IMG/VR virus record: IMGVR_UViG_3300042868_004482
Coordinates: 1 to 27,770 of that record
DNA from: a virus
Length of the DNA stretch: 27,770 nucleotides
Strand: one strand, 5' to 3'
In this document: positions 3,304 to 10,433 of the stretch, in pieces
Layout of the letters: every line of letters starts with the position of its first letter
Position numbering within the stretch: position 1 is the first letter of the stretch
Notes under the pieces: generated by a model
Databases searched by the model: none
The model's input: only the letters and a program-made list of their open reading frames with translations
What the model was told of the DNA's origin: nothing
Position numbers and translations under genes: made by a program

Positions 3304-5306
3304 AAGACTCAACGCAATGCTTAGAACGCTTTGCAAAGACTCAGGGCGAAAACTACGACTACAGAGAGCTGAGCCGCGAAGATGATCGCTTCTGCTTAGA
3401 GAAGGATGGTCAGTGGGAGGATAACGTTGTTCGCAATATGTCGGGACGCCCTCGCTATACCTTCGACAAAACCAACCCAGTCATCGAAGATATTATGTCT
3501 GAGGTTGAGGGCATGGACTTCGGCGCGCGAGTCAGACCAGCAGGCGGCGGAGCTACTAAAGAGCTTGCAGAGACTTACTCGGGCGTTATCCGCTACATCG
3601 AGAACATCAGCAACGCGCCAAACGTGTTACGCGCAGTGACTCGCAGGCAGATTCGCCGCGGTGTTGATTTCATCCGACTTAAAACAGATTGGTCTGGTGA
3701 GTCAGGCTTTCATCAAGATATATTCATTAAAGACGTTAAAGACTCCATCAACCGCGTTTGGTTGGGCTATCACGAAGAACAAGACGGCTCTGATGCTGAT
3801 GAGGGCTGGCAGGTTCACGCCATGCTTCCTGAAGACTTTGAAGAGATGTACGGGCGAAAGTGCAAGTCAATCGGCATTGGCCAAGAGTCGCAGATTGGTG
3901 AGCAGGACTATAAACCTGAATTGGCTTTATACCTTGAATACCTTTACAAAAAGCCATACAAGAAAACTATCGCGTTGATGAGCGACGGCAGCGAGATTGA
4001 GATTACTAAGGAAACATCATCCGTACTGGATGAGCTGATGATGAAGGGCGTCACAGAAGTGCGCCGCAGAACCACGCAGAGCTTCAAGGTTTTTAGTCGC
4101 TTCTTAGATGCTGATGATTGGCTTGGCTCAGAGCTTGAAACGGTTTGGTGTTCAATCCCCATCATTCCTGTTTATGGCAACTTTGAGGTTGTCGAAGGCA
4201 AGGTTATTTGGTCGGGCATCGTTCGCAGGCTGCAAGACCCGCAACGAACATACAATTACGCGCGCAGCAGAGAGATTGAAGAGGGTGCACTAGCCCCACG
4301 CCGCAAGCTGATGATGACTAAGAAGCAAGCAAGCGACAAAGACGTTATGCGCCAACTTCAAAACATGAACACAAGCGCAGACCCTGTGCAATTCTACGTG
4401 CCTGACGAGCAAGCGCCACAGCCATACGAAACGGCAGGACCACAGATTAACCCTAACCTCGCCAACACCGCGCAAGCTGCCGCCAATGACATTGTAGAAA
4501 CGTCAGGTATATTCTCCGCACAACAAGGACAGAACCCGCGCTATCAATCAGGATTTGCAATTGAGCAGATGATTAGCAAGGGCGACGCTAAGACTACTCG
4601 CTGGCTAAACAACACTGCCATTGCTTATCGCCGAGTTATGCTGATGCTGATTAAGGCTATCCCGAAGATTTACGACTCTGAGCGCGTAATCCGTATTGAA
4701 AACAACGACGGAACAGAAGAATCTGTTGAGCTTAACAAGGAAGTGATTGATTCTCAGACTGGCAAGGTGGTCAAGGTTAACGACTTATCGCAAGGCCAGT
4801 ATGCTGTCACGGTTGATTTGGACAGAGCCTACAAGTCCAAGCGCCAAGAGTCAGCAGAAAGGATGGTGCAGTTAGCGGCAGTTGACCCAAGCATTATGAT
4901 TGAAGCGGCGGATATTGTGTATGGCAACTTGGATGTCCCAGGTGCCGAGCAAATCAAAGAACGTAAACGCCTTGCGATGCTCAAAGCTGGTTTGATTCCT
5001 GACAGCCAAATGACTGACGAAGAAAAGCAGGAAGCCGATATTCTAATTCAGCAGCAACAGCAGCAAATGGCAATGCAGCAAGAGCAGCAAGCGCCAGTTA
5101 CTCAAGCGATGGTTGCTAACTATGAATCGATTATCCAAGAGCGTATGGCTAAGCTGATGCAAGAGCAGGAAAAGCTAGACCTGCAAAAGCAGAAACAGAT
5201 TGACGATGTAATGCTGAAGCTTACCGAGCTGGAGCAGAAGTATATGACGCAATTAAACGCTGAGGCTGCGGCAAACCGCCAAATTCTTGACACGCCAATT
5301 AATTGA
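3297..5306 (+). CDS. P22-type portal protein
   Basis: A 669-residue protein of the size and layout of the P22 gp1 portal family, which forms the dodecameric ring at the capsid vertex for DNA entry and exit. Support comes from the N-terminal region (YDYRELSREDDRFCL), the central IPIIPVYGN and QDPQRTYNYARS segments, and SGIFSAQQGQNPRYQSG. The last 120 residues are glutamine-rich and helical (ILIQQQQQQMAMQQEQQ), likely the C-terminal barrel or coiled coil. The gene overlaps terL by 7 bp. Confidence 0.92.
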   Translation: MVKDSTQCLERFAKTQGENYDYRELSREDDRFCLEKDGQWEDNVVRNMSGRPRYTFDKTNPVIEDIMSEVEGMDFGARVRPAGGGATKELAETYSGVIRYIENISNAPNVLRAVTRRQIRRGVDFIRLKTDWSGESGFHQDIFIKDVKDSINRVWLGYHEEQDGSDADEGWQVHAMLPEDFEEMYGRKCKSIGIGQESQIGEQDYKPELALYLEYLYKKPYKKTIALMSDGSEIEITKETSSVLDELMMKGVTEVRRRTTQSFKVFSRFLDADDWLGSELETVWCSIPIIPVYGNFEVVEGKVIWSGIVRRLQDPQRTYNYARSREIEEGALAPRRKLMMTKKQASDKDVMRQLQNMNTSADPVQFYVPDEQAPQPYETAGPQINPNLANTAQAAANDIVETSGIFSAQQGQNPRYQSGFAIEQMISKGDAKTTRWLNNTAIAYRRVMLMLIKAIPKIYDSERVIRIENNDGTEESVELNKEVIDSQTGKVVKVNDLSQGQYAVTVDLDRAYKSKRQESAERMVQLAAVDPSIMIEAADIVYGNLDVPGAEQIKERKRLAMLKAGLIPDSQMTDEEKQEADILIQQQQQQMAMQQEQQAPVTQAMVANYESIIQERMAKLMQEQEKLDLQKQKQIDDVMLKLTELEQKYMTQLNAEAAANRQILDTPIN

Positions 5307-7986: not shown

Positions 7987-9618
7987 ATGCCAACAATAAA
8001 CGCGGGAAGCCGCGCAATAGTTACAGTTCAAGACGGTCAAGCCATTTGGGTGACAGCTACGGGCAATGCTCGCTACACCATTGGGCTACCTGTCCTATCC
8101 GCATCAACATCTATCCCGCGCAACCAAGAAACGCGCATTGGCTACTTAGGCACCACGGCGAATGTTGAGCTTATTTGTGAGAGTGGCACGCTTAGTTATC
8201 AAGACTCGCCTTCGGTGCTTGTGCCGCTTGATGCTGGTAGCTCCATTCAGGAGGTTGCTACTAATGTTAACTCGCTTAAGGACAACATTGGAGCGGTTCA
8301 AAAACTACCTCAAAGCGGCGAGCCGCCAGCGCCAAACTTTGCTGTTTACCCTGAAGCGAACAGCATTGACCCAAACACGCAAGGCTCAAGTATTTGGGGT
8401 GTCGGCTGGACTGTTTTTCCTAACAAAATAGGCGCAGTAGCAAAGCCGCTTGGGCCTGACGGAACAAACGCCGCTGAATGGCAAATCGACACAGGTTACG
8501 CTGCTGCAACTTTAAATGATGCGTCTGTTGCCACCATAACTGGCGGCTATGACCACATCAACAATCAGATTGCAGGCACTATTTCTGGCGGCGGTCATAA
8601 TTACATCCAATATAACAGCGAAGGCCACTCATTGATTGCTGGTGGCTCTTACAATTGGATTGAGGCTGGCAGGGCTACTATTGTGGCAGGCACTAACAAC
8701 AGAGTGTCTGGCGATATTTACAACACAATAGGCGGCGGCTTTACAAACAAGATTTTAGCGGGTGGTCACAACTTAATTGCAGGTGGTGAGTTTAACACCA
8801 TCAATAATCCGCTAAACAAGTATGTTTATGCGTTCGGTCGAAACATCAGCGTAACTGGCACAAGCAAAGACACAACAATATCTGGTCGCGCTCACACAGT
8901 TGCAAACGATGAAGGCTCGGCGATTGTTGGCGGTCAAGGTCACGATTTAAGCAGCACGCTCAAATGCGCCGCGCTTGGCGGAAATGAAATTGATTTAACA
9001 AGCGCCCAATTTTCTGGCGTGCTTGGCGGCGACGACATAACAATGACAGGCTCGCTGTATAGCGCATCTGTCGGCGGTCGTGTCAATGTGCAGACTGGGC
9101 GCAGCTCTTTCATGGCTTGCGCAGAAGAATCGAACGATAATGGCGCAAGAGGTCTTTTTACTGGCCGAAAAGCGCAGGGGCTTGGTGCTCAATTCCAAAT
9201 TACTATCGGGTGCAACCACCCGACTGTTGGCGTCACCTCTCAATCAATGAAGGTTGCGCAAGGCGTGCAGACTACTGGCGCAAACTTGAACGCACCAACT
9301 GAGCAGATGATCACCGTAGGAAATACTGGTCTTACTGTAATTTCAGGCAATGTTTATGTAATTGCAAGAAACATCACGGACAACAAGACGGCTGGATATA
9401 CGGTCAACTTTGTTGGGCAGTGGGACGGCACAACTTATTTCCTGAACGGCGGTACTGCTGACCTAGCCATGAGCGTTATCTACGCAGACGCAACAAGCAA
9501 CATCACAGCACCAACTTTAGCGTTTAGCGCTGGTCAGCTTCGGGTTAGATTCGGTGGCACAGCGTCAAAGACGGTTAATTGGTCTGCTGTTATTGATTGC
9601 TCAGTTATGAAGTTTTAA
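7987..9618 (+). CDS. repeat-rich trimeric fibre, possible head or collar fibre
   Basis: 543 residues with GGGG upstream of ATG 7987. The N-terminal 90 residues form a predicted beta domain (INAGSRAIVTVQDGQAIW) that may be the virion anchor. Residues about 180-370 hold short repeats of GG-x-x-N-x-I type (ISGGGHNYI, IAGGSYNWI, IGGGFTNKI, IAGGEFNTI), the signature of a beta-roll or solenoid like YadA-type adhesin heads. The C-terminal 150 residues look like a terminal beta domain. Its position between gp4 and gp10 homologues is not that of a P22 gene, suggesting an insertion. Head fibre, collar appendage or secondary receptor-binding protein are all possible. Confidence 0.75.
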   Translation: MPTINAGSRAIVTVQDGQAIWVTATGNARYTIGLPVLSASTSIPRNQETRIGYLGTTANVELICESGTLSYQDSPSVLVPLDAGSSIQEVATNVNSLKDNIGAVQKLPQSGEPPAPNFAVYPEANSIDPNTQGSSIWGVGWTVFPNKIGAVAKPLGPDGTNAAEWQIDTGYAAATLNDASVATITGGYDHINNQIAGTISGGGHNYIQYNSEGHSLIAGGSYNWIEAGRATIVAGTNNRVSGDIYNTIGGGFTNKILAGGHNLIAGGEFNTINNPLNKYVYAFGRNISVTGTSKDTTISGRAHTVANDEGSAIVGGQGHDLSSTLKCAALGGNEIDLTSAQFSGVLGGDDITMTGSLYSASVGGRVNVQTGRSSFMACAEESNDNGARGLFTGRKAQGLGAQFQITIGCNHPTVGVTSQSMKVAQGVQTTGANLNAPTEQMITVGNTGLTVISGNVYVIARNITDNKTAGYTVNFVGQWDGTTYFLNGGTADLAMSVIYADATSNITAPTLAFSAGQLRVRFGGTASKTVNWSAVIDCSVMKF

Positions 9619-9635
9619 AGGCTTCCAACCAACAC

Positions 9636-9664
9636 TTGCCAATCCCAACCATCTAGGCTAGGAT
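9636..9664 (+). promoter_or_regulatory. sigma70-type promoter for the intergenic RNA
   Basis: TTGCCA (9636-9641, 5 of 6 consensus) and TAGGAT (9659-9664, 4 of 6) are 17 bp apart. The expected start, 7 nt after the -10, is about 9671, the first base of a perfect hairpin. CAATCC (9640-9645) and GGATTG (9661-9666) followed by TTTT could also act as a weak terminator for the fibre gene, overlapping the promoter. Confidence 0.5.
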
Positions 9665-9670
9665 TGTTTT

Positions 9671-9887
9671 ATCAGAAGGGGTTCTGATGCAACTTACCAC
9701 GCTTGGCCACAATGGCAGATAACACGACCTAGAGCAGCAGACTCCATCTGCTTTTGTGCCTAACGTGTTTGAAATTGTGGCAGTCATAGGTTTACGGCTT
9801 GTCCGGTTTCCCTATTTCCGCAAGTGGCTGATACTTGCGACGACGAATCAGCGAGAGATTGCCACCTTAGCGGGTGGCTTTTTCTTT
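9671..9887 (+). ncRNA. candidate structured noncoding RNA with an H-type pseudoknot
   Basis: The gene-free interval contains these perfect complements. Hairpin ATCAGAA/TTCTGAT (9671-9688, GGGG loop). GCCACAAT (9706-9713) with ATTGTGGC (9774-9781), enclosing AACACG (9721-9726) with CGTGTT (9764-9769), enclosing AGCAGA (9736-9741) with TCTGCT (9747-9752). ATAGG (9786-9790) with CCTAT (9811-9815) around CGG/CCG. A pseudoknot: stem 1 CGCAAG (9819-9824)/CTTGCG (9834-9839), and loop bases GCTGAT (9827-9832) pairing with ATCAGC (9847-9852). A terminator follows. I recognise no known RNA family. Caution: a frame broken by TAA 9720 is otherwise open from ATG 9687 to 9905, so a decayed gene or an 11-codon leader peptide (9687-9722) is an alternative. 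Confidence 0.55.
9861..9887 (+). terminator. strong intrinsic terminator ending the intergenic RNA
   Basis: GCCACC (9861-9866) pairs with GGTGGC (9873-9878) around a 6-nt loop, followed by TTTTTCTTTT. Its 5' arm (TGCCAC 9860-9865) can alternatively pair with GTGGCA at 9777-9782, so terminator formation could be conditional. Confidence 0.85.
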
Positions 9888-9930
9888 TGTGAGAAGCTAA
9901 ACTAAAAATCCCAACGACAGGAGCAAACAC

Positions 9931-10005
9931 ATGGCATCACCAACCCAGAAGCCGCGCCCGCCAAAAGACGGAAAGCCAGAACCAACCAAGAAAGGCAAGA
10001 AGTGA
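9931..10005 (+). CDS. basic proline/lysine-rich peptide, 24 aa
   Basis: ATG 9931 is preceded by ACAGGAGC, a near-perfect ribosome-binding site. The peptide starts MASPTQKPRPPKDGKPEP and ends TKKGKK, is strongly basic and has no hydrophobic residue beyond Ala. Its stop (10003-10005) overlaps the GTG start of the membrane protein at 10002 (GTGA), so it may couple translation of that gene, bind nucleic acid, or simply act as a leader. The strong start signal and the overlap are the evidence for expression. Confidence 0.6.
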   Translation: MASPTQKPRPPKDGKPEPTKKGKK

Positions 10006-10433
10006 ACACTATTGATGCGGTGCTGCTATTTTTGTGGTGCCTGCTGATTTTAAGAAACACAGCGGCTTTATTGCCGCTTTTTATACTGTCACTTGATATT
10101 TTTATGATAAATATTTTTGATACGGATTTCCCACGCTATTGTGTAATAGCATTAGTTTACCTCGAGGCCGCCAAGTTAAATATACATATACCCGCAAAAC
10201 TACGCTATGCTTTTTTAAGCTTCGCGTGCCTTTATTGGGTATCGGCTTTCGATGAAATGCTTTACAATCATGTGGATACATATCAAGGGCATTTTTACGC
10301 TGTCATGCCTTACCTAGTGATAGCACTGAACGCCTACATTGCCGCGGTGCTTCTATTGGATGGAGGGCGTACACTTGTTGGATTTCTTGGCAGATGGCGC
10401 AGCTCTGTTATTAATCGCATTACTTGGTTATAA
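10002..10433 (+). CDS. multi-span membrane protein, 143 aa
   Basis: Starts at GTG 10002 in a GTGA overlap with the 24-residue peptide. Hydrophobic segments lie at about residues 5-38 (IDAVLLFLWCLLILRN then LLPLFILSLDIFMI), 45-60, 66-82 and 98-127, suggesting four or more transmembrane helices, and the protein ends basic (FLGRWRSSVINRITWL). No family is recognised. Multi-span membrane proteins are unusual inside a P22-type virion cluster. A role in envelope modification, exclusion or lysis timing is possible but unproven. Confidence 0.7.
   Translation: MNTIDAVLLFLWCLLILRNTAALLPLFILSLDIFMINIFDTDFPRYCVIALVYLEAAKLNIHIPAKLRYAFLSFACLYWVSAFDEMLYNHVDTYQGHFYAVMPYLVIALNAYIAAVLLLDGGRTLVGFLGRWRSSVINRITWL

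Follow-up and report, generated by a model that had tools for sequence, protein, structure and literature searches.

A conserved pseudoknot as the probable 3′ domain of an accessory structured noncoding RNA in several tailed phages

Phage T4 encodes the stable noncoding RNAs C and D. DicF, AsxR and c4 are likewise described as regulatory phage sRNAs (PMC12197685). Phages and prophages also carry GOLLD and ROOL, structured noncoding RNAs with unknown function that often lie near tRNA islands; multiple pseudoknots are described for ROOL, while GOLLD combines a conserved 3′ part with a variable 5′ part and many of its members exceed 800 nt (PMC12286853). Among bacterial leaders, the rnk leader of Pseudomonas (RF01772) is a structured element with an intrinsic terminator close behind (PMC2965389).

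Here we describe a predicted RNA in a 27,770-nt stretch of viral DNA (IMG/VR record IMGVR_UViG_3300042868_004482; hereafter, the window), a P22-type phage fragment encoding terminase, portal, coat and stabilisation protein. From its sequence signals, the RNA looks like a unit of about 200–220 nt (~9671–9890; all features named below lie on the + strand). GOLLD and ROOL are the closest described kind, sharing with the present RNA a structured noncoding nature and, in the case of ROOL, the presence of pseudoknots. In contrast to many GOLLD members of >800 nt, however, the RNA measures ~200 nt, and it matches neither the GOLLD nor the ROOL model of Rfam. As to siting at tRNA islands, a tRNA-like array is clear only in the locus L041; in the remaining members examined with ARAGORN, no tRNA was called. 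Like the rnk leader, the RNA folds closely 5′ of an intrinsic terminator, but it carries an extra conserved rod domain, lacks a conserved antiterminator and is followed by phage genes rather than rnk. int-alpA (RF02996) is also a small phage RNA gene, yet differs in sequence and location, and the RNA has no match to its model. T4 RNAs C and D, DicF, AsxR and c4 resemble it as phage noncoding RNAs acting apart from protein products, but no sequence match to them was found.

Searches against Rfam 15 returned no family at its cut-off for the RNA, either in the window or in seven loci carrying it; matches among those seven loci (int-alpA in L096 and tRNA in L041) both fall outside the RNA. Below its curated cut-off of 55 bits, rnk_pseudo (RF01772) scored 16.7 bits in the window and 14.5 bits in L086, c-di-GMP-I-GGC scored 23.1 bits (cut-off 59) on the minus strand of L041, in a match spanning its pseudoknot and terminator, and other weak matches fall over the terminator part. 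The int-alpA RNA of L096 (9318–9383, 40.5 bits) is also annotated in Shewanella phage ZP9. A limited search of the phage noncoding RNA literature revealed no description of this RNA in the available portions of PMC12197685, PMC12286853, PMC2864571, PMC2965389 and PMC9964418. The family seems new, of a kind (structured phage noncoding RNA, like GOLLD and ROOL) that is already known.

The RNA contains an H-type pseudoknot at 9819–9852, which an initial annotation had called with near-ideal geometry. Its four strands are present as it gave them, namely CGCAAG (9819–9824), GCTGAT (9827–9832), CTTGCG (9834–9839) and ATCAGC (9847–9852), as is its placement 8 nt 5′ of the terminator stem, which begins at 9861. 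The H-type assignment and near-ideal geometry stand, but not the dimensions attached to them (a 6-bp stem 1 and loops of 2, 1 and 7 nt): T9825 and A9833 also pair, so that stem 1 comprises 7 bp (9819–9825 with 9833–9839) and the loops measure 1, 0 and 7 nt. Stem 2 joins 9827–9832 to 9847–9852 over 6 bp, and loop 3 (ACGACGA, 9840–9846) is of a CGA-containing type common to the members of the family.

Eleven viral loci carry the RNA, ten of them in full and one (L024) cut by the contig end. The exact pseudoknot pattern recurs in three other IMG/VR contigs (L002, L003 and L004), in which the similarity extends over a much longer stretch; L008, L024 and L041 were retrieved via two conserved upstream words, among many unrelated matches, and L068 via a looser word pattern. 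A covariance model (R1) built on the 84-nt core was run on 80 contigs related to the window by terminase, the best of 149, and matched six of them, namely three known contigs and the more distant, new L096, L083 and L086; a second model (R2) matched the same six. Applied to 57 other sources, R2 recovered the eight known loci and nothing else convincing, the next candidate being L021 (19.3 bits, E 0.036). Five isolate phages with a related terminase contained no convincing R2 match, the best (18 bits, E 0.03, over 32 nt) being taken as chance. Comparison with named phages and plasmids at the level of DNA similarity yielded only short, low-score phage matches to the window region, short or chance matches to the L041 and L008 versions, none to the L086 version, and, in plasmids, a single 29-nt match to the terminator. 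Many loci retrieved by short patterns were discarded as false positives, as were both matches from a scan of genome contigs with one exact pattern, which by eye lay within protein-coding genes of Bacteroidota.

A scan with set loop ranges identified the pseudoknot as the sole H-type element with 6+6 Watson-Crick pairs on either strand of the window. In 200 dinucleotide shuffles (one strand, overlapping registers counted separately) there were 35 matches, and ~0.2 such pseudoknots per strand are expected by chance in DNA of this size. One occurrence in 27.8 kb is therefore not improbable, so that the sequence taken singly is no proof and the comparative evidence is decisive. For the window's 43-nt pseudoknot stretch, 1 of 2000 shuffles was as good; the corresponding numbers per 2000 were 7 for L008, 75 for L068, 5 for L096, 21 for L083 and 4 for L086. 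L041 has no pseudoknot under the strict scan rules, its stem 2 forming six of seven pairs with one A-G mismatch. All ten full members can form two interleaved stems with loops 1 and 2 short and a loop 3 that spans stem 1, the one mismatch being that of L041. The initial annotation had named lost complementarity in relatives among the observations that would speak against the pseudoknot; instead, pairing is kept in all ten full members with seven different sequences, in a small set whose members, apart from the window, were selected for their similarity and of which four (window, L002, L003 and L004) have an identical pseudoknot sequence, the other six having different stems. Judged by this comparison, the predicted pseudoknot is a real, conserved feature and lies where it had been placed. 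Chance complementarity within a noncoding gap, for which the expectation of ~0.2 per strand might speak, is already refuted by this retention and is hardly credible.

The 5′ portion of the RNA begins with a hairpin (ATCAGAA-GGGG-TTCTGAT, 9671–9688) that belongs to a variable part and is absent or different in other members. It is followed by a rod-like hairpin (core domain A, 9699–9781), the part modelled as R1 and R2. At its base, P1 pairs 9706–9713 with 9774–9781, and one of its pairs appears as CG, AU, GC or UA among members. Between P1 and P2 lies an asymmetric internal loop, the same in 10 of 10 aligned members, in which GGCNGAU (9714–9720) stands opposite an invariant UGAA (9770–9773). 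With its 3-nt excess, possible tandem G-A pairs and a fit by eye, this loop could be kink-turn-like, a kink-turn having two helices that flank a 3-nt bulge and tandem sheared G-A/A-G pairs. P2 (AACACG, 9721–9726, with CGUGUU, 9764–9769) is replaced by GCAGAG/CUCUGU in L083 and by GCAAGG/CCUUGU in L086; one P2 pair is G-U on this strand in four of ten members, and such strand-specific pairs fit an RNA of the + strand. The upper rod (9730–9762) comprises a short stem (UAG.GCA/UGC.CUA, 9730–9736 with 9757–9762), P3 (GCAGA/UCUGC, 9737–9741 with 9747–9751), whose pairs change on both sides, and the apical loop CUCCA (9742–9746) closed by P3. In distant members this loop reads CUUCCU or CCUUCCU, and the upper loop is incompletely conserved (L041: CUCUCGAA). 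A possible second pseudoknot in the rod (GGCA/UGCC) is kept in all seven aligned sequences; it was set aside, as a nested alternative takes the same 3′ strand and most of its pairs are invariant.

The rod is followed by P4 (9786–9815), a hairpin with an outer stem AUAGG/CCUAU (9786–9790 with 9811–9815), a U-rich internal loop and an inner stem CGG/CCG (9795–9797 with 9803–9805), whose arms differ in sequence between members while remaining paired in 10 of 10. In L002 and L004 the P4 loop is enlarged by a further insertion of ~45 nt, which may fold into a separate hairpin. For domain A, 95.7% of cells were paired in an alignment of ten sequences, against 80.8% in shuffles, with changes on both sides in 10 of 19 pairs and none of 500 shuffles as high by any measure; this alignment was fitted to the covariance model and is thus biased towards it. 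An independent MAFFT alignment of seven closer sequences gave 95.0% paired cells and double changes in 3 of 23 pairs. Taken at the level of aligned sequences, covariation strongly supports the rod domain. The predicted fold of 9671–9890 is also unusually stable (z −2.99; 0 of 200 shuffles as stable).

Upstream of the RNA, a σ70-like promoter (TTGCCA-17-TAGGAT, 9636–9664) is the sole promoter-like site in 9550–9960. The pattern TTG[AC]NN-17-TANNNT is found ahead of the core in nine of the 11 members, as compared with 1–6% of shuffled upstream stretches; L096 has TTTGCA-16-TATAAT instead, and in L041, whose RNA is the last element of a longer array, no promoter pattern was seen within 260 nt upstream. 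In L068, L083 and L086 the –10 box ends 14–15 nt before the core, a spacing that suggests the transcription start, which in the window we infer at ~9671. At the other end, an intrinsic terminator (9861–9888; stem 9861–9878, then a U-rich tail) is present in 10 of 10 full members. It follows the pseudoknot after 3–8 nt in nine of them and after 25 nt in L041, and the two overlap in none, so neither need exclude the other. Both marks of an sRNA gene, a promoter of its own and an intrinsic terminator, are hence in place as sequence features. A protein-coding reading of the region, raised by a 62-aa ORF spanning the RNA in L003, was rejected, being countered by 1-nt indels between members and by compensatory stem changes.

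The RNA sits between a late gene and, usually, a gene for a small predicted membrane protein (10002–10433 in the window) plus a holin-like ORF, a label that rests on size and position; for one such ORF, in L002, the PHROGs label is moron membrane protein. A profile search, with a profile built from six of the eight carriers it returned, located the membrane-protein family within ~2 kb downstream in eight of the nine members with enough sequence (window, L002, L003, L004, L008, L041, L068 and L096) but not in L086. The first gene after the RNA varies, being a 24-codon Lys/Pro-rich ORF in the window, an Ead-like ORF (labelled by eye) in L003, L004, L041, L083 and L096, with a short ORF coming first in L002, a gp49/66-family ORF in L008 and a head-tail adaptor homolog in L086. 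The 24-codon ORF (9931–10005, read by eye) lies 3′ of the terminator and outside the RNA; it has a good ribosome-binding site, and similar short ORFs occupy the same place in L008 (second piece, see below) and L068. Carriers include phages with the P22-type coat and phages with Mu-gpT-like/Phage_capsid_4 capsids, the capsid of L003, L004, L008 and L024 differing from that of the window. Conversely, the membrane gene is present in L091, L092 and L093, yet searches of these contigs with the RNA model, even unfiltered, gave no convincing match; in L091, 106 nt separate the tail gene from the membrane gene, with no RNA between them. Changing neighbours, differing capsids and relatives with the same flanking cassette but lacking the RNA mark it as an optional, movable unit.

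We consider it probable that the pseudoknot forms the 3′ domain of an autonomous, accessory structured noncoding RNA present in several tailed phages. Comparison of the loci shows a conserved fold, a promoter-like site of its own, a gene neighbourhood that varies, and relatives in which the same cassette lacks the RNA, and this evidence favours an autonomous, "moron"-like noncoding RNA over a sensing attenuator. The latter would be a cis-acting leader or riboswitch that senses a ligand or protein and gates read-through into the membrane-protein/holin-like cassette, and the initial annotation had similarly regarded the position before the terminator as typical of a ligand- or protein-sensing module. 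An own promoter, an elaborate fold, a pseudoknot directly 5′ of an intrinsic terminator and the weak architectural likeness to rnk_pseudo noted above are in keeping with such a leader, as is a candidate antiterminator in which the P1 3′ strand region (9777–9784) pairs with the terminator 5′ arm (9859–9866) over 8 bp including G-U. However, this sole candidate pairing was rejected as unconserved, since it occurs in the window and L002 and is missing at that place in the other eight of ten members. Without overlap of pseudoknot and terminator in any member, with no conserved antiterminator and with a varying next gene (24-aa, Ead-like, gp49/66 or head-tail adaptor), the attenuator reading is weakened, and the sensing module finds no support in an RNA that has its own promoter. 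L002, L004 and L096 moreover contain a promoter 3′ of the RNA's terminator, and L091–L093 retain the membrane gene without a detectable RNA. What keeps a leader function alive is the frequent membrane-protein neighbour, which in eight of nine members could mean a link in cis and thus counts against autonomy; overall, we regard it as rather unlikely.

A connection to tRNA genes could be drawn from L041, where the RNA ends an array of tRNA-like genes (3857–4010) that in part resembles the tRNA-Met/Ser region of T5-like phages. One gene of this array, a cloverleaf with a 6-nt anticodon loop, scores 30.1 against an Rfam tRNA cut-off of 29, and a second resembles tRNA-Met once thresholds are lowered; ARAGORN, run with its defaults, calls neither. 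In addition, a short element (GACAAGTTnCCGCAnnCGCGGT) lies within the 5′ part of the RNA at L041 3643–3664, L002 6901–6922 and L008 1649–1670; it is also present in L079–L082 and adjoins tRNA or tRNA-like genes in other viral contigs, with tRNA genes in L080 and L081. These observations would suit a tRNA-island-like module, i.e. a tRNA-derived or tRNA-linked RNA that either counters tRNA-directed defences of the host or assists the phage in translation. Yet ARAGORN at default settings called no tRNA in the eight loci scanned (window, L002, L003, L004, L008, L024, L041 and L068), the RNA core gave neither a cloverleaf in ARAGORN nor a match to the Rfam tRNA model, P2 encloses P3 in a manner unlike a cloverleaf, and no tRNA-like array adjoins the RNA in the window, L068, L083, L086 or L096, as far as these were read; we therefore hold this reading to be unlikely. 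A bolder reading, in which an accessory, independently transcribed RNA represents a new class of phage ribonucleoprotein RNA, recruits a host protein or ribosome component through its kink-turn-like loop and 3′ pseudoknot and, travelling with tRNA-like genes, serves as a portable module for translation takeover or protection, is a quite doubtful conjecture. Finally, the inverted repeats might be kept as DNA, at a recombination hotspot or module boundary. Downstream of its gp49/66 ORF, L008 contains a second piece (~2296–2384) that matches the 3′ end of the RNA in the window, comprising the stem-2 strand, the terminator and the region up to the short Lys/Pro-rich ORF, as if, judging from the sequences, modules had been exchanged within the element. 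One-strand G-U pairs, the promoter and RNA terminator, the motifs in loops and a pseudoknot that would be superfluous in DNA all stand against this proposal and render it very improbable. An integron attC site, considered by eye, was dropped as no matching partner site was seen.

As for the mode of action of an autonomous noncoding RNA, host σ70 RNA polymerase would transcribe it, release would occur at its own terminator, and the product would act in trans, most likely as a regulatory RNA that is stable and bound by protein. Structural or protein-binding roles might fall to the invariant internal loop and to the pseudoknot, both of which would help to shield the 3′ end, the pseudoknot presumably being a folding module rather than a switch. 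The pyrimidine-rich apical loop (CUCCA) may pair with purine-rich sites, e.g. the Shine-Dalgarno regions of mRNAs from phage or host. Strongly covarying, pseudoknotted and absent from Rfam 15, the family would join the few free-standing phage noncoding RNAs. Its compact size and clear ends, together with natural stem swaps and relatives lacking the RNA, ease probing, deletion and pull-down. Like GOLLD and ROOL, it is relevant to the question of why phages maintain elaborate noncoding RNAs, in some cases next to tRNA genes. As a minor observation, the locus L060 of Alishewanella phage Slickus01 contains a tRNA-Phe annotated as pseudo (1044–1129), with an ORF related to the Ead-like one ~3 kb away.
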